Shown here: one piece after another, positions 4,594 to 11,653 of the stretch
Numbering within the stretch: position 1 is the stretch's first letter
Layout of the letters: every line of letters starts with the position of its first letter
Assembly: GCA_013388755.1 (NCBI GenBank)
Contig: JACAEQ010000019.1
Span: 1 to 37,224, forward strand
Source: Chloroflexota bacterium
Lineage (GTDB): Bacteria > Chloroflexota > Chloroflexia > Chloroflexales > Roseiflexaceae
Reading direction: 5' to 3'
DNA: 37,224 nucleotides
Notes under the pieces: model-generated
Seen by the model: only the letters and a program-made list of their open reading frames with translations
Database searches by the model: none
Told to the model about the DNA's origin: nothing
Program-made: the position numbers and the translations under genes

Positions 4594-6990
4594 CTAAATA
4601 TCCAGATTCTTCACCTCCAGCGCATGCGTCTGAATAAATCGTTTCCGCGGTGGCACCAGGTCGCCCATCAGCATGGTGAACGTCTCGTCGGCCTGTTGCG
4701 CATCCTCCAGGGTCACCTGCAGCAGGAGCCGGTTGACCGGGTTCATCGTCGTTTCCCAGAGTTGCTCGGCATTCATCTCGCCAAGGCCTTTGTAGCGCTG
4801 GATTTCCACCCTGTTGCGCTCGGATGCGCTGAGCCCGGCAATATACTGGTCGCGTTCCTGCTCAGAGAAGACGTACTTCTCGGTCTTCCCATGTTTCACC
4901 CGGAACAACGGCGGTTGCGCCAGGTACAGGTGACCATTGGTAATGATCTGGCGCATGTAGCGGAAGAAGAACGTCAGCAACAGGGTGCGGATATGGCTGC
5001 CGTCCACGTCCGCGTCGCACATAAGGACGACGCGATGATAGCGTAGCTTCGCCGGGTCGAACTGCTCGCCGACGCCCGCGCCGATCGCGGTAATCAGGGC
5101 TTTGACCTCGTTGTTGGAGAGCATTTTGTCGAGCCGGCTCTTCTCAACGTTCAGGATCTTGCCGCGTAGCGGCAGAATCGCCTGGTAGCGCCGATCCCGG
5201 CCTTGCTTGGCACTGTTATGGACGAAAACGCCCGAAGCGAGGGCGAAATTATGCGTATTCGGCACTTCAAGATCGTAGACATCAACACGATCGACAAGCC
5301 GCTCGACGCTCACAACTCGATGATTATGGGTACGAACCGCATCGTGTGCGCGCGTCTCATCGTCGTCACAGTACCACGGCATCAGCGAGTCATCAGGCGT
5401 CAGGCTCACCGCTGCCTTGTAGCTGCCATCGCGCAACATAAAGCGATGATCCGGGGTGCATGTGATCGTTTCGCCATTGTCGAGCGTTATCTGCACAACC
5501 TCCGCGTTATGCCTGGTTATGCGCGCATGGATCGCGCGTTCTACCCCGATCGTGCCATCGTGTCGGATGGTATAGCAGAAGTGTTCCTTGCCCTCGGCTT
5601 GCTCGGCGACAAGCTCGCGAAAACATAACGCGCGTCCGTCAGCGAGCGCCACCCGCGTATCACCAGCAAAGCACCCCCCGGCGCTGTCACCCTCCACCAC
5701 AAACAACTCACTACGCGCCGGGTTGGTATCGGAGCAGTCGGCGAGTTTGCCGGGCAGCGAGAAGCCCTCCATCGCGCTCTTGCGTGCCGTCTCGCGGACC
5801 TTCTGCACCGCGATGCGGGTACGCGCCGCCGAGATACATTTCTCGATGATCCGCCGCGCTTCCTGCGGGTTCTCTTCGAGCCAGGCGCTGAACGCATCGC
5901 CGAAGACGGTGTTGACCGCGCCGGTGGCGTTCGGGCTGACCAGTTTTTCTTTGGTCTGTGAACTGAACTGCGGGTCCTTCAGTTTGACGCTGATCACCGC
6001 CGTCAACCCTTCGCGCACGTCATCGCCGGTCAGGTTGCCCTCATTCTCTTTGAGGAACCCCTTGTTGCGGGCATACGCGTTGATCACCCGTGTGAGGGCG
6101 CTGCGAAACCCGGCAACGTGCGCGCCGCCGTCGGTGTTGTTGATGCCGTTGGCGAACGCATAGACCGAGTCGGTGTCGAAACTCTCGGTGTACTGCAGCG
6201 CGACCTCCACCGCTACATCGTCAATGGTGCGCTCCACATAAAATGGCTGCTTGTGCAGCGCATTCTTGTCCTTGTTGAGGTGGCGGACATACGAACGAAT
6301 GCCGCCCTCGAAATAGAAGTTCAATTCATTGTCGTCGCGCTCATCAACGAACTTGAACCGCAACCCTTTGTTGAGGTATGACATCTCGCGGAAGCGCTGC
6401 GCCAGTGTCTTGAAATGGTAGTCCAGCGTCTGGATGATCGTCGTATCAGGAACAAAGCGCGTGATCGTCCCGCGCCGCGTTGTCGGGCCGACTTTCTGTA
6501 CCTCGGCCTGCGGCGCACCGCAGCGGTACTCCTGGAAGTAGTGAAACCCGTCGCGCGCATTGTGGACATCAACGCGCATGTATGCTGAGAGTGCGTTGAC
6601 TGCCGAGACACCGACGCCATGCAGGCCGGAAGACACTTTGTAGCTCTGATTGTCGAACTTGCCACCGGCGTGCAGCACCGTCATCACGACCTGCAATGTA
6701 CTGACCTTCAGTTTGGGGTGCGGCCCGGTCGGAATACCGTAGCCATCGTCGGCCACGGTAACCGACCCGTCGCGATGGATGGTCACTTCGACGCTGGTGG
6801 CGCGCCCTGCCATCACTTCGTCCACCGAATTGTCCACGACCTCGCGCACCATGGTATGCAGGCCGTTGATATCGGTCGGCCCGATATACATGCCGGGGCG
6901 GCGGCGCACCGCCTCCATCCCTTCCAGAACCTGGATCTGGCTCTCATCATAACCGGCGCCGTCGGCCGGTCGCAACAGTTCGCTCGTCAT
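4594..6990 (-). CDS. gyrB: DNA gyrase subunit B precursor with an in-frame intein
   Basis: ATPase subunit of DNA gyrase, which with GyrA introduces negative supercoils. The 798-residue frame is a normal GyrB of about 645 residues plus a 153-residue intein (residues 440-592). Visible landmarks are the GHKL ATPase N-box (EVVDNSVDE), DDGYGIPTG, GLHGVGVSAVNALS, the TOPRIM motif EGDSAGG split directly after the second Gly, the TOPRIM acidic DADVDGSHIRTLLL and the C-terminal QRYKGLGEMN. Both extein parts are full length and collinear with the family, so the protein should be active after splicing. The start at 6990 gives the usual N-terminus before GMEAVRRRPGMYIG, but no strong Shine-Dalgarno is visible. 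The gene ends in KNLDI, a common GyrB ending, 3 bp from a repeat element. Confidence 0.97.
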   Translation of the reverse strand: MTSELLRPADGAGYDESQIQVLEGMEAVRRRPGMYIGPTDINGLHTMVREVVDNSVDEVMAGRATSVEVTIHRDGSVTVADDGYGIPTGPHPKLKVSTLQVVMTVLHAGGKFDNQSYKVSSGLHGVGVSAVNALSAYMRVDVHNARDGFHYFQEYRCGAPQAEVQKVGPTTRRGTITRFVPDTTIIQTLDYHFKTLAQRFREMSYLNKGLRFKFVDERDDNELNFYFEGGIRSYVRHLNKDKNALHKQPFYVERTIDDVAVEVALQYTESFDTDSVYAFANGINNTDGGAHVAGFRSALTRVINAYARNKGFLKENEGNLTGDDVREGLTAVISVKLKDPQFSSQTKEKLVSPNATGAVNTVFGDAFSAWLEENPQEARRIIEKCISAARTRIAVQKVRETARKSAMEGFSLPGKLADCSDTNPARSELFVVEGDSAGGCFAGDTRVALADGRALCFRELVAEQAEGKEHFCYTIRHDGTIGVERAIHARITRHNAEVVQITLDNGETITCTPDHRFMLRDGSYKAAVSLTPDDSLMPWYCDDDETRAHDAVRTHNHRVVSVERLVDRVDVYDLEVPNTHNFALASGVFVHNSAKQGRDRRYQAILPLRGKILNVEKSRLDKMLSNNEVKALITAIGAGVGEQFDPAKLRYHRVVLMCDADVDGSHIRTLLLTFFFRYMRQIITNGHLYLAQPPLFRVKHGKTEKYVFSEQERDQYIAGLSASERNRVEIQRYKGLGEMNAEQLWETTMNPVNRLLLQVTLEDAQQADETFTMLMGDLVPPRKRFIQTHALEVKNLDI
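5215..5673 (-). other. GyrB mini-intein (no homing endonuclease)
   Basis: Protein intron of 153 residues. It begins with the nucleophile Cys1 in CFAGDTRVAL (block A). Block B is ITCTPDHRFML with the conserved T-x-x-H. The C-terminal splicing blocks are VDVYDLEVPNTHNFALASG and then VFVHN, ending in His-Asn; the +1 extein residue is Ser in SAKQGRDR. All residues needed for canonical splicing are present. Only about 45 residues lie between the N- and C-terminal splicing blocks, with no LAGLIDADG motif, so this is a minimal intein that can splice but not home. It splits EGDSAGG/SAKQ in the TOPRIM catalytic site, so unspliced GyrB would be inactive. Confidence 0.95.
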
Positions 6991-7105: not shown

Positions 7106-8074
7106 TTATACGCGCGGGCGCACCGGCTGCCGTTCTTCCATCCGGCGCAGCCGTTCACGGTAGAATGCCATGCGAGCCGCACTGAGGCCGGCGCCGATAT
7201 AGGCGCTGCCAAGGGCCGCCGCCGTCAGGCCGGCCGTCGTCCCGCTCAACAGATCCCAGATCACCTCCGTCCCGCGCGCAATCAGCAGTGAGAGGAGCAA
7301 CAGGCCAATCGTACCCCACAGATTGCGGCGCACAATGTTGAAACTCGCCTGAATGGCGCGCAATGGCCCGAGCCGGCTCATGACAATCGCTTCGTTCGTG
7401 AAGCCGATGTAAATCTGCACCCAGACCGCCACAACAAACAACAGGCTGAACGCCAGCGCGCCCAATCCTTCATTCAGCGCCAGCAGCAGGCCTGCGGCAA
7501 ATGCGAGTGGTACTCCGAGGATCAGCCCCACCGCCAGAAAGATTGTCATTGCGCCAAGCAACGCCACCGCTACATGGGCCAGTGTGCGCCCCATGCCGCG
7601 TGGCCAGGGCGGTTCACCGCGCACAGCGGCACCGACGAGTGTCAGAAACAGCACGCCAATGGGCAATACCACCAGATTGATGGCCATGATTGCCAGCAGT
7701 GCGCCAGGGATACTCGACACCCGGATCGCCGGGCCGGCTATGCCATCGCTCGCCAGCGCTCCCGGCGCGAAGCGCGGGATGACGAACCGTGGCATAACGT
7801 TCAGCAGTGCAAGCGGCTGGCGCAGATCGGTCTGCCCGAGTTCTTGCAGCAACGTACTGATCTGGCTTTGCACCACGCCGTCGGCTGCGGTCGGGTCGCT
7901 CGCCAGGCGCGTAAGGAACCCGTCGAGCCGGTCGAAAAGCGGTGCGAACGATACCGGCGCGCTGAAGAGCAACACCAGGTTAAACGCGAGCGCCAGCAAC
8001 AGTATGGCCGGCCTCCGGTGAATGGCACGATATCCTTCGCCCAGCGTATCGATCACAGAGGCGGATTGTGGCAT
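7106..8074 (-). CDS. Polytopic membrane protein of unknown function
   Basis: 322 aa from the ATG at 8074. There are about six hydrophobic spans: PAILLLALAFNLVLLF near the N-terminus, ALLAIMAINLVVLPIGVLFLTLVGAAV, VAVALLGAMTIFLAVGLILGVPLAFAAGLLLAL, GALAFSLLFVVAVWVQIYI, IGLLLLSLLIA and a final Gly/Ala-rich helix. A loop of about 90 residues sits between the first and second spans. The C-terminus is basic (RERLRRMEERQPVRPRV) and probably cytoplasmic. The amphipathic segment LGPLRAIQASFNIVRRNLWG before the fifth span is typical of bacterial integral membrane proteins of the DUF4013/YIP-like kind, but I cannot name a family. It lies upstream of gyrB on the same strand, separated by 115 bp. An extended -10 promoter at 8111-8119 fits its transcription. 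Confidence 0.75.
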   Translation of the reverse strand: MPQSASVIDTLGEGYRAIHRRPAILLLALAFNLVLLFSAPVSFAPLFDRLDGFLTRLASDPTAADGVVQSQISTLLQELGQTDLRQPLALLNVMPRFVIPRFAPGALASDGIAGPAIRVSSIPGALLAIMAINLVVLPIGVLFLTLVGAAVRGEPPWPRGMGRTLAHVAVALLGAMTIFLAVGLILGVPLAFAAGLLLALNEGLGALAFSLLFVVAVWVQIYIGFTNEAIVMSRLGPLRAIQASFNIVRRNLWGTIGLLLLSLLIARGTEVIWDLLSGTTAGLTAAALGSAYIGAGLSAARMAFYRERLRRMEERQPVRPRV

Positions 8075-8110
8075 ACTGGCGCTCTGAATACGGATGAAGA
8101 CAACCTCACT

Positions 8111-8119
8111 ATTATACCA
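8111..8119 (-). promoter_or_regulatory. Extended -10 promoter for the 7106-8074 membrane protein gene
   Basis: The minus strand reads TGGTATAAT, a perfect extended -10 (TGn-TATAAT), 36 bases before the ATG at 8074. No good -35 is seen, which is normal for extended -10 promoters. Confidence 0.5.
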
Positions 8120-8186
8120 CATCTCACGCCGGATCGTCGCCAGACAGGAACATGTGTTTCATCCGGCACAAAATCGCCAGCGGTGT

Positions 8187-8224: not shown

Positions 8225-10015
8225 ATGACGCATCACGAGCCAGTCGCGCCTGCCCGTTTCCTGCCGGACGCGCTTGCCGCGCTCACGGTTACGGGTGCTG
8301 CCGCGCGCTGGGCCGCGGTGCAACAGCGGCTGCATCCAGTATTTGCCGCGTTTGCCGGGCAGCTACGCGCCGAGGCGTCCCGTCGCCTGCCGCGCATCTG
8401 GCCGCTCTATGAACTGAGTTATCGCAGCCAGCGCTATGTGAACCGTGGGCCGGGTGTGCGCGACCCGATCGATTCGTATTACCTGGCCATCGATCGCCCA
8501 CCGCGCGGCGCCGGGGTGTACCTGGCCGTCAGCGGCGCTGAACGCCTGATTATCGTTGCGCTGCAGGTCTCGCGGCGCCGCAAGCATGACCTGGCGCGTG
8601 TGTGGGAAGAGGCACGCGCCTTCTGGTTGCCGCTGGTCACCCGTATGACCGAGGTACGCTTTGCCGAACGTGAGGCGCGCGGCGATCGGCACGAGAGTGC
8701 TGAGGGGCAGTTCCCGGCGCGCACCGGCGAACCGCCTGGCGCTGCCGGTCTGTGGCTCGACCGTTACCTGGCGACGCACACGGCATCCTCGTTGCTGGCC
8801 GGGTTTGCCTACCACTGGGACGACTCCCGGGTCGCGCAACCGGCATTCAGCCAGCAACTGGTGCACGATGTGCTGGCGCTCTTGCCGCTCAATGAGGCGA
8901 TCATGGAACGTGCCGAGATGCGCGATCCGACCGGTGCAGCCTGGTTGCGCGAACAACGCGCGGCATACGCCGGAGTGGACGAGCCGCCGATCGAGACGAT
9001 CGTGGAACGTATTCGCGCGCGCGGGTTTACGATTGCCGAGCAGATCATCCGCGCCTATCACGTTGCCCTGCAGACGCGCCCACTCGTTATTCTGCCCGGC
9101 ATCTCGGGGACCGGCAAGACGCGACTGACCCGCCTGTACGCCGATGCGCTGGCCGGCGAGTACCTCGCCCCCGGCCAGGAGAACGAAAGGTACCTGCTGG
9201 TGGCCGTGCAGCCAGACTGGCACAACGCGCACGACCTGCTCGGCTACTATAATGCGATCACCGGCAAGTACCATGCCACACCCTTCCTGCGCTTCCTGCA
9301 GCGTGCCGCCGCCGATCCTGCTGCGCGCTACTTCGTCTGCCTCGACGAGATGAACCTGGCGCGGCCAGAGTATTACCTGGCGCCGATCCTGGCGGCCATG
9401 GAAACCGAGGATCGTCTGATTGATCTGGGCGCGCCGGGCGCAACTGTCGAAACCGTTAATGGTGAGGTGCTGCCAGATCCGCTGCGGTTACCGCGAAACG
9501 TGGCGATCATTGGCACGGTGAACGTTGATGAAAGTGCCCACGCCCTTTCCGACAAGCTTCTGGATCGCGCCAATGTCATTGAGTTGACCGATGTCGATCT
9601 GGCCGGATTTCGCGCCGGTTACCGTGGCGCCGTGGACGATGCGCTCTGGGAGAGTATTACTCGTGTGCATGCGGTCATGGCGCGTGCCGGCCAGCCGTTT
9701 GGCTACCGCGTTCTGAGCGAAATGCTGCGCTATATTGAACAGTCGGCGGGCGTGCTGGCGCCGCAACAGGCGCTTGATCTGCAGATCAAACAGAAGGTAT
9801 TGCCAAAACTGCGCGGCGACGACAACCCGCGCCTGCGCCGGGCGCTGACGGCGCTGCTCGAATTGCTGGTGGGAGTACCACAGAGCGCATGGGAGCGGGC
9901 AACCTTGCTTCCGCCTGAGGTGCTTGCCGCTGCACCGTTCCCCGAGTCGGCGGAAAAGGTGCGGCGGATGCTTGAGCGTCTTGACGCCGATGGCTTCACC
10001 GATTTTTATGGCTGA
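8225..10015 (+). CDS. McrB-like AAA+ NTPase, stand-alone
   Basis: 596 aa. Residues 1-240 are a variable N-terminal part with no motif I can name (WPLYELSYRSQRYVNRGPGVRDP, then VYLAVSGAERLIIVALQ). Residues 285-560 are an McrB-type AAA+ domain: Walker A GISGTGKT (292-299), the McrB-family segment VAVQPDWHNAHDLLGYYN, Walker B and extension FVCLDEMNLAR (370-380), and the sensor region IGTVNVDESAHALSDKLLDRANVIEL. McrB is the GTP-driven translocation subunit of modification-dependent restriction and normally works with the nuclease McrC. No McrC gene follows; the next gene is purB. The N-terminal part may recognise DNA or another ligand. It could be a defence component with a distant partner or an unrelated McrB-like machine. 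AAA+ assignment is firm; role is unknown. Confidence 0.85.
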   Translation: MTHHEPVAPARFLPDALAALTVTGAAARWAAVQQRLHPVFAAFAGQLRAEASRRLPRIWPLYELSYRSQRYVNRGPGVRDPIDSYYLAIDRPPRGAGVYLAVSGAERLIIVALQVSRRRKHDLARVWEEARAFWLPLVTRMTEVRFAEREARGDRHESAEGQFPARTGEPPGAAGLWLDRYLATHTASSLLAGFAYHWDDSRVAQPAFSQQLVHDVLALLPLNEAIMERAEMRDPTGAAWLREQRAAYAGVDEPPIETIVERIRARGFTIAEQIIRAYHVALQTRPLVILPGISGTGKTRLTRLYADALAGEYLAPGQENERYLLVAVQPDWHNAHDLLGYYNAITGKYHATPFLRFLQRAAADPAARYFVCLDEMNLARPEYYLAPILAAMETEDRLIDLGAPGATVETVNGEVLPDPLRLPRNVAIIGTVNVDESAHALSDKLLDRANVIELTDVDLAGFRAGYRGAVDDALWESITRVHAVMARAGQPFGYRVLSEMLRYIEQSAGVLAPQQALDLQIKQKVLPKLRGDDNPRLRRALTALLELLVGVPQSAWERATLLPPEVLAAAPFPESAEKVRRMLERLDADGFTDFYG

Positions 10016-10029
10016 CGCGGGTGAAAGGT

Positions 10030-10274
10030 GAAGAGACCGGGAGACAAGAGACCGGGAGAAGGGGGGACGAGGAGACGGGGAGATAAGGAGACGGGGAGAC
10101 CGGGAGAAAGGGGGATCGGGAGACGAGGAGACAAGGAGACAGGGGGAGTGTGGAGTATCCAGATCCAGGCTCGGGTCTGAAAAGCCATCAAGTCTCTCGA
10201 GCTCTCCCCCACTCCCCCACTCCCCCACTCCTCCACTTCCCCACTCCCCCACTCCTCCCACTCCCCTCCTCTCT
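10030..10274. repeat. Low-complexity purine tract followed by pyrimidine tract
   Basis: 10030-10147 is almost pure purine with degenerate GGGAGAC/AGGAGAC units. 10198-10274 is a pyrimidine tract of CTCCCCCA-like 7-8 base units. A 50-bp ordinary spacer lies between. The two arms are roughly complementary in kind (purine against pyrimidine) and could pair, form triplex, or form G-quadruplex on the minus strand of the second arm (GGGAGTGGGGGAGT units). The tract lies between the McrB-like gene and purB, and ends about 20 bp before the purB start. Confidence 0.8.
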
Positions 10275-10294: not shown

Positions 10295-11653
10295 ATGACG
10301 CTGACCGCACTTTCGCCGCTCGACGGGCGCTACCATGCCGACGTCGCTGAACTCGAAGCCTATTTCAGCGAGGCGGCATTGTTTCGCTACCGGGTGCGCG
10401 TCGAAGTTGAATATCTGCTGTTCCTGACGCGCGCGCGCAATGTCGATTTCGTACCGCAACTTGACCCGCGCGCAGTGGCGGCGCTACGCGATCTGTACCG
10501 CTCATTCTCCGCCGATGACGCCACAGCGATTGCCGCCTGGGATCGCCAGGTCAATCACGACGTCAAGGCGGTCGAGTACTGGTTGCGCGACCGCCTGGAT
10601 GCGCTTGGCCTGGGCGCCTGGAAGGAAGCGGTTCACTTTGCCCTGACATCGGAAGATGTCAACAACCTGGCCTATGCCCTGATGGTGCGTGAGGCGCGCG
10701 ACCTGGTGCTGCTGCCGGTGATCGGTGAGATTGGCGCAACACTACGCGACCTGGCCTTCCTCGAGGCAGAAACGCCGATGCTCGCCCGCACCCATGGCCA
10801 GCCTGCGACGCCAACGACCTTCGGCAAAGAAATGGCTGTCTTCGCCGCGCGCCTGCAACGCGCACAGCAGGGTGTTGCAACGATTCGGCTGACCGGCAAA
10901 TTGAATGGCGCGACCGGCACGTTTGCCGCGCATACCGTGGCACTGCCGCACGTCGACTGGATGGCGTTCAGTCGGGCGTTTGTGCGCTTCCTTGACCTGG
11001 AGCCGGTATTGTTGACCACACAGATCGAGCCACACGATACCCTTGCCGAGTTGTGCGACGCAGTGCGCCGGCTCAATATGATGTTGATCGATCTCAGCCA
11101 GGATATGTGGCGCTATATCAGTGACCGGTATCTGATACAGATTGTGCGGGCCGGCGAGGTCGGCTCTTCCACTATGCCACATAAGGTCAACCCGATCGAC
11201 TTCGAGAATGCGGAAGGTAACCTGGGCCTGGCCGGTGCGTTACTGGAACACTTCAGCCGCAAGTTGCCCATTTCACGCCTGCAACGTGACCTCACTGACA
11301 GCACTGTGTTGCGCAACCTTGGCGTGGCGTTTGGTTACAGCCTGCTGGGCTACCGGCGTGTACTCAAGGGGCTGGGCAAGATCGCCGTGGATCGGGCCCG
11401 CCTGCTCGATGAGTTGCGCGCGCACCCTGAGGTTCTGGCCGAGGCGGTGCAGACCGTTCTCCGTCGTGCCGGCTACCCCGAGCCATACGAGGCGCTCAAG
11501 CGCCTGACGCGTGGCCATGCCCTGACCCTTGACGCGCTGCATGCCTTCATTGAGGGGCTTGATGTGGCGCCAGATGTGAAGGCTGAGTTGCGGGCGCTTG
11601 CCCCCGAGACTTATACGGGCCTGGCGGCTCGCCTGGCGCGAAGCCTGGGGTAG
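10295..11653 (+). CDS. purB: Adenylosuccinate lyase
   Basis: Cytoplasmic homotetrameric lyase acting twice in purine synthesis: it cleaves SAICAR to AICAR and adenylosuccinate to AMP, releasing fumarate. 452 aa, the normal length for the long bacterial (E. coli-like) type. Landmarks are SPLDGRY at the N-terminus, NHDVKAVEYWL, HFALTSEDVNN, ARTHGQPATPTTFGKE, and the fumarase/aspartase superfamily signature GSSTMPHKVNP carrying the catalytic loop Ser. The ATG at 10295 is preceded by AAAGGGAG at a good distance. The 5' leader runs through the pyrimidine tract, so expression may depend on that structure. No other purine gene is adjacent; the divergent PurD-like gene is 7.5 kb away on the other strand. 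Confidence 0.97.
   Translation: MTLTALSPLDGRYHADVAELEAYFSEAALFRYRVRVEVEYLLFLTRARNVDFVPQLDPRAVAALRDLYRSFSADDATAIAAWDRQVNHDVKAVEYWLRDRLDALGLGAWKEAVHFALTSEDVNNLAYALMVREARDLVLLPVIGEIGATLRDLAFLEAETPMLARTHGQPATPTTFGKEMAVFAARLQRAQQGVATIRLTGKLNGATGTFAAHTVALPHVDWMAFSRAFVRFLDLEPVLLTTQIEPHDTLAELCDAVRRLNMMLIDLSQDMWRYISDRYLIQIVRAGEVGSSTMPHKVNPIDFENAEGNLGLAGALLEHFSRKLPISRLQRDLTDSTVLRNLGVAFGYSLLGYRRVLKGLGKIAVDRARLLDELRAHPEVLAEAVQTVLRRAGYPEPYEALKRLTRGHALTLDALHAFIEGLDVAPDVKAELRALAPETYTGLAARLARSLG

Follow-up and report, generated by a model that had tools for sequence, protein, structure and literature searches.

A McrB-like AAA+ protein with a YktB-like N-terminal domain and an unlinked, co-inherited McrC-like gene in the Chloroflexales: a candidate dispersed McrBC system

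The analyses described here indicate that the McrB-like protein (T) encoded in the 37,224-nucleotide stretch of DNA under study (the window) is probably the subunit that supplies motor and specificity to a dispersed, core-inherited NxD-branch McrBC nuclease, its specificity module being YktB-like and its partner an McrC-like protein (C) encoded elsewhere in the same genome. T joins a domain homologous to YktB/DUF1054 proteins to an McrB-like AAA+ motor with intact motifs, the genome carries a single, unlinked McrC-like gene, and the two genes are co-inherited across the order. The features of T are located in the window as follows.

8225 to 10015, plus strand: McrB-like gene T, an open reading frame of 596 aa, with orthologs in 47 of 60 relatives
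8246 to 8917, plus strand: N-terminal YktB/DUF1054-like domain (residues 8–231, fold and profile–profile comparison), proposed specificity module
8492 to 8509, plus strand: DRPPRG motif (residues 90–95), with D90, R91, P93, R94 and G95 invariant in 35 sequences (alignment A3)
8978 to 9868, plus strand: McrB-like AAA+ motor (residues 252–548), by fold match to E. coli McrB and by PADLOC (PDC-M26A, 2e-49)
9098 to 9121, plus strand: Walker A motif GISGTGKT (residues 292–299)
9335 to 9376, plus strand: Walker B region VCLDEMNLARPEYY (residues 371–384)
9512 to 9535, plus strand: NxD-type signature GTVNVDES (residues 430–437), NxD followed by E
9965 to 10012, plus strand: conserved C-terminal tail RMLERLDADGFTDFYG after a variable linker (alignment A1)

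The initial annotation had regarded the AAA+ half as typical of McrB, and this is borne out: in the AlphaFold2 model of T (mean pLDDT 86.4, pTM 0.57), residues 252–548 match E. coli McrB (6ut6_D) with a Z score of 20.1 and an rmsd of 3.5 over 270 residues, and phmmer relates the two proteins at an E value of 9.5e-6. The NxxD signature of classic McrB is absent, all 35 motors compared having instead NxD followed by E. T thus carries the form (NxD, usually with E or D after it) that, according to PMC11090510, defines an McrBC branch without any characterised McrB GTPase; the same paper places this motif's aspartate in contact with McrC, so that an McrC partner is to be expected for T. Relatives of the motor bear other N-termini, namely EVE (a Chlorohelix protein, 9e-12, and another Chloroflexota protein, 2e-14) and MrcB_N (on a Salinibacter plasmid, 2.6e-45), and McrB proteins with an McrC next to them end in a tail of the RLKRDGYTSFWR type, related to that of T.

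That the N-terminal half of T matches nothing, as was thought at the outset, holds for Pfam at its cut-offs but not for comparison by fold and by profile–profile alignment, both of which lead to YktB/DUF1054. Residues 8–231 align with residues 2–211 of 2a8e, identified as yktB, with a Z score of 16.6 and an rmsd of 3.0 over 193 aligned residues (VIA-align, whole model); 3mqz is another DUF1054 protein. In hhalign, a profile of 35 N-termini matches three DUF1054 proteins, the only sequences on that side of the comparison, with Prob 88.1 and E 3.1e-6 in an alignment of 192 columns that is collinear over its whole length, and the unrelated controls gave Prob 0.2 and 0.3. The Pfam model PF06335 finds 4 of the 35 members at E values up to 0.1 (best 0.025), its gathering score not being reached, and one further sequence at E 0.019 (15.4 bits against 27 required); over 400 Chloroflexota genomes it gives no match at E 0.001, which places the fused domain below the reach of Pfam. 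Since a search of PDB sequences with the N-terminal profile returned no YktB, its best match (E 0.14) being an unrelated chain, the YktB link rests on the fold and profile–profile comparisons. The suggestion that the N-terminus is no known modified-base reader agrees with the lack of any Pfam match to EVE or MrcB_N/DUF3578; an identity with MrcB_N was rejected by hhalign against one MrcB_N sequence (Prob 0.3), and comparison of YktB with MrcB_N gave nothing. Alignment A3, in which the DRPPRG motif is conserved, comprises the window and 34 of 55 loci, 36 having been prepared and two (L085 and L104) dropped with a broken frame; the remaining 19 are partial or near-duplicate. Because related motors carry EVE or MrcB_N in their N-terminal part, the simplest interpretation is that the YktB-like domain serves as the specificity module of T.

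The description of T as an McrB without McrC is correct for its neighbourhood, the window holding no DUF2357/PDDEXK neighbour of T, but not for the genome. The classic McrC family PF10117 has no match there, and a verdict of "no McrC" from PF10117 alone was rejected as misleading, since one 540-aa ORF with DUF2357 (2.7e-18) and PDDEXK_7 (1.6e-14) is present elsewhere (G000:C56), at a locus unlinked to T. The PD (444–445) and DAK (463–465) residues of C, which correspond to motifs II and III of this nuclease family (PMC1913061), are invariant in each of the 20 McrC-like proteins aligned from the order, and a DUF2357 protein with a PF04411 nuclease is the McrC side of the NxD branch (PMC11090510). 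PADLOC names C weakly as PDC-M26B (3.4e-4) and T as PDC-M26A (2e-49), and searches with alignments A1 and A7 found a single intact motor of the McrB-like kind and a single McrC-like protein in the window's own genome. The neighbours of C are ordinary genes that differ between families: from inspection of the sequences we take them to be an RdgB-like pyrophosphatase for the Roseiflexus group, a CorA-like transporter for genomes of the Chloroflexus type, and priA- and rpsF-like genes in one genome (G016) of genus g8. T and C were never found adjacent in the order, as judged from the window, 19 T regions (20 were fetched, the T of L038 remaining unclustered) and 20 McrC-like regions; the distance between them is 53 kb in G001, where they share a contig, and 0.38 Mb or more in the single-contig genomes G003, G042, G045, G047 and G054.

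In distant relatives, an McrC-like gene stands directly beside the McrB-like gene in 15 of 18 regions (eight by Pfam, L183 by a DUF2357/PDDEXK_7 match and six by clustering in the tree). The mcrC-like conserved neighbour named in the initial annotation as the finding that would speak against a motor without McrC is therefore seen, in these more distant relatives. One genome of the order also has a second, operonic NxD McrBC pair (L183, G059:C392), standing beside a very large ORF (1885 aa), an apparent toxin–antitoxin pair and a methylase-like ORF; this is a typical defence-island copy.

Orthologs of T are present, full-length or as contig-end fragments (G013, G019 and G041), in 47 of the 60 genomes of the order; an automatic tally of 50 included three (G002, G008 and G059) that match in the AAA domain only. 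With fragments scored as presence, T and C are both found in 42 genomes and both missing from 12, five have T without detected C (G005, G010, G013, G015 and G019, of which G015 is 99% complete), and one (G059) has C without T, a further gene, P (see below), ending there 64 bases from a contig end, where T would follow. The Fisher p value for this co-occurrence, 5e-8, is inflated by relatedness, the joint absences falling in two genera. Within one genus (g8), a single genome of 11, G016, has a diverged T, and it alone has a diverged C. When 35 motors and as many McrC-like proteins are placed in trees, the T motors of the order form one clade (SH-aLRT 99), as do its C proteins (100), the sub-groups are largely shared, and in both trees the proteins of the pairs that are adjacent in other Chloroflexota fall into a separate clade; 15 of the 18 distant regions were included, L182 (contig ends), L187 (a degenerate motor paralog) and L188 (a neighbour without DUF2357 or PDDEXK_7 match) being omitted. 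The evolutionary distances of T and C (for T, the motor part alone in both the trees and the rate test) show a partial correlation, given PurB and ProA, of 0.95 over 19 genomes (leaving out G004, in which no PurB was found), of 0.84 without G016 and of 0.87 without G016 and G051, with none of 2000 permutations as high in each case. Control gene pairs gave 0.65–0.75, so part of the T–C signal is species history, and the excess alone speaks for a shared function.

T is a single-copy, vertically inherited and conserved gene with housekeeping surroundings. Its identity to three Roseiflexus-group relatives is 75–78%, as against 86% for PurB, and 63–66% where that of PurB is 72%. A conserved-peptide search found 55 T loci, the named carriers of which are almost all Chloroflexota (Roseiflexus, Chloroflexus, Oscillochloris, Chloroploca and Herpetosiphon groups). 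A Chloroflexales-type ortholog also occurs in a bin labelled Candidatus Gracilibacteria (L104), a label that is probably a binning error or contamination. In a phylum sample of 400 Chloroflexota genomes, 57 of which have any match, whole-profile matches are restricted to the window's order, and beyond it the motor and C-terminal tail alone match; collections of phages, plasmids and viral contigs contain no whole-length match. This distribution is unlike that of a mobile defence system. As had been proposed, purB is the next gene (10295–11653; Lyase_1 2.9e-48, ASL_C 2.9e-44), and the gap before it is filled from 10031 to 10266 by low-complexity purine/pyrimidine repeats with units of the GAGACCGG type and CTCCCCCA. 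On the other side, a gene for a membrane protein (7106–8122, minus strand), weakly DUF7847-like (4e-6, just short of the cut-off), is divergent from T and occupies this position, between T and gyrB, in several relatives too. The gyrB gene itself (4594–6990) has a 153-aa mini-intein at 5215–5673 (minus strand), in an EGDSAGG/SAKQGRD site that holds an insert of about 433 aa in one relative (L034) and none in two others (L031 and L049).

The slow vertical evolution and the housekeeping surroundings suggest not a mobile defence island but a resident core function, either that of a constitutive barrier or that of a domesticated nuclease. The second of these would be an McrBC whose T–C complex has DNA or RNA of the cell itself as its substrate, in repair, recombination or RNA quality control, and is not mainly directed against phages. 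We consider this possible, if somewhat unlikely: the order-wide vertical inheritance with a conservation close to that of PurB, the housekeeping neighbours of both genes (rdgB-like, corA-like and priA/rpsF-like genes, gyrB and purB) and the lack of a whole-length match in the phage, plasmid and viral-contig collections speak for it, but both genes have been lost in two genera except in one g8 genome, so that the function is dispensable, and no repair or translation gene is their constant partner.

It is quite improbable that T is a single-gene defence or quality-control NTPase acting alone, as first imagined, the C gene elsewhere being unrelated. T does stand alone in its locus, five of the 60 genomes have it without a detected C, and it is far better conserved than C (about 57% identity for C to the same Roseiflexus relatives), from which T may have a role beyond C. 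Against this, 42 genomes with both genes and 12 with neither leave only six discordant among 60, the one g8 genome has both together, the two trees mirror each other and the rates co-vary, the relatives of the motor occur in adjacent McrBC pairs, and the window's own genome has one intact motor and one McrC-like protein. The proposal of a single-gene machine is hence not supported in the presence of an unlinked gene of the McrC type.

Two further proteins were considered as partners of T. P, of 220–240 aa, has an invariant C-terminal YL(R/K)PPTA tail (alignment A4; e.g. L095:7288–7977) and is encoded immediately before T in 20 of the 34 genomes that contain it; four further g8 genomes match it weakly, over the first 81 positions only. 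Its predicted fold is like YbjN and type III chaperones (Z 8.3–8.7, near the stated noise band of the tool). As a needed partner of T it was rejected, because the window's genome and most members of its family lack it, and it is at most an accessory. The notion that T is an AAA+ remodelling chaperone of the MoxR/NorQ type, with a function unlike that of McrB and with P as its adaptor, appears very improbable, for although P so often precedes T and the fold matches that come next include NorQ and CbbQ (Z 16–17), the McrB fold scores higher, the NxD-E motif is present, T is retained where P is missing, and the clustered neighbours showed no conserved vWA partner. T2 is a degenerate McrB-like motor paralog that lacks both the N-terminal domain and the tail; its Walker B is broken and NxD is mostly missing. 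A hand count finds it, as a second and weaker match, in 36 of the 60 genomes (15 copies were read and aligned); the copy in the window's genome (L187:9785–10918, G000:C47) has a broken Walker B and no NxD. T2 was rejected as a strict inactive-subunit partner, as it also occurs where both T and C are missing, in G002 for example.

The assignment of T to a dispersed McrBC of the NxD branch is worth comparing with known systems. With the NxD-branch McrBC of PMC11090510 (PADLOC PDC-M26), T shares the McrB-like AAA+ domain with NxD then E, the DUF2357 and PD-(D/E)XK (PF04411) partner and an N-terminal specificity module. It differs in that T and C are unlinked instead of forming one operon, that the N-terminal module is YktB/DUF1054-like, that T is a vertically inherited core gene of the order, and that no constant methyltransferase, HEPN or coiled-coil companion was seen for it. 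CoCoNuT, described in the same paper, likewise combines an NxD motor with a DUF2357 partner, but T has no long coiled coils, its modelled N-terminus being globular with longest helices of about 30 residues, and no RNA-binding or HEPN neighbours were seen. E. coli McrBC has the same motor fold, two-subunit logic and N-terminal reader, whereas here the motif is NxD instead of NxxD, the reader is different, the genes lie apart and the nuclease is of the PF04411/DUF2357 kind, not PF10117. The closest motors found, those of the adjacent McrB/McrC pairs of a Candidatus Chlorohelix plasmid and of Chloroflexota family f24, have the same C-terminal tail type and a DUF2357–PDDEXK_7 partner, there directly adjacent; in contrast to T, they have EVE or other N-termini and are operonic, with overlapping ORFs in several. 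YktB/DUF1054/UPF0637 proteins (PDB 2a8e and 3mqz) share the fold and a full-length profile match with residues 8–231 of T, but are stand-alone Bacillota proteins of about 12% identity, with no fused motor.

The predicted machine would work as follows. The YktB/DUF1054-like domain would bind a particular nucleic-acid feature, such as a modified base or an unusual structure, and the AAA+ domain of T would assemble into a hexameric NTP-driven ring, on which C, supplied from its unlinked locus, would dock; its DUF2357 stalk would stimulate hydrolysis by the ring, and the PD-(D/E)XK domain would cut DNA or RNA. Binding between T and C, the reader role of the N-terminus and cutting are each what we infer.

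McrBC systems are usually regarded as patchy, operonic and mobile defence. That both halves are kept by almost the whole order as vertically inherited genes is unusual for a defence system, and the dispersed, order-wide pair demonstrates that no McrC nearby does not mean no McrC. In the open-licence literature, among the papers listed, no description was found of a dispersed or order-wide McrBC or of a DUF1054–McrB fusion; among the matches listed for McrB or McrBC with Roseiflexus, Chloroflexus or Herpetosiphon, none is by its title about the McrBC of these organisms, and none of the publications on YktB/DUF1054/UPF0637 is about McrB, judging from titles and the beginnings of abstracts. With T and C, NxD motors become testable as a simple two-protein system, free of RNA-binding or HEPN add-ons, and the function-unknown DUF1054/YktB fold, for no member of which a function was found, gains a testable role as a nucleic-acid reader. 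We speculate further, although this is rather doubtful, that McrBC here exists outside defence islands as two unlinked core genes with a YktB-like reader, kept nearly order-wide in the role of a housekeeping nuclease, in which T2 might serve as an inactive member of the ring or as a regulator. If true, this would provide the first functional lead for the DUF1054/YktB family.
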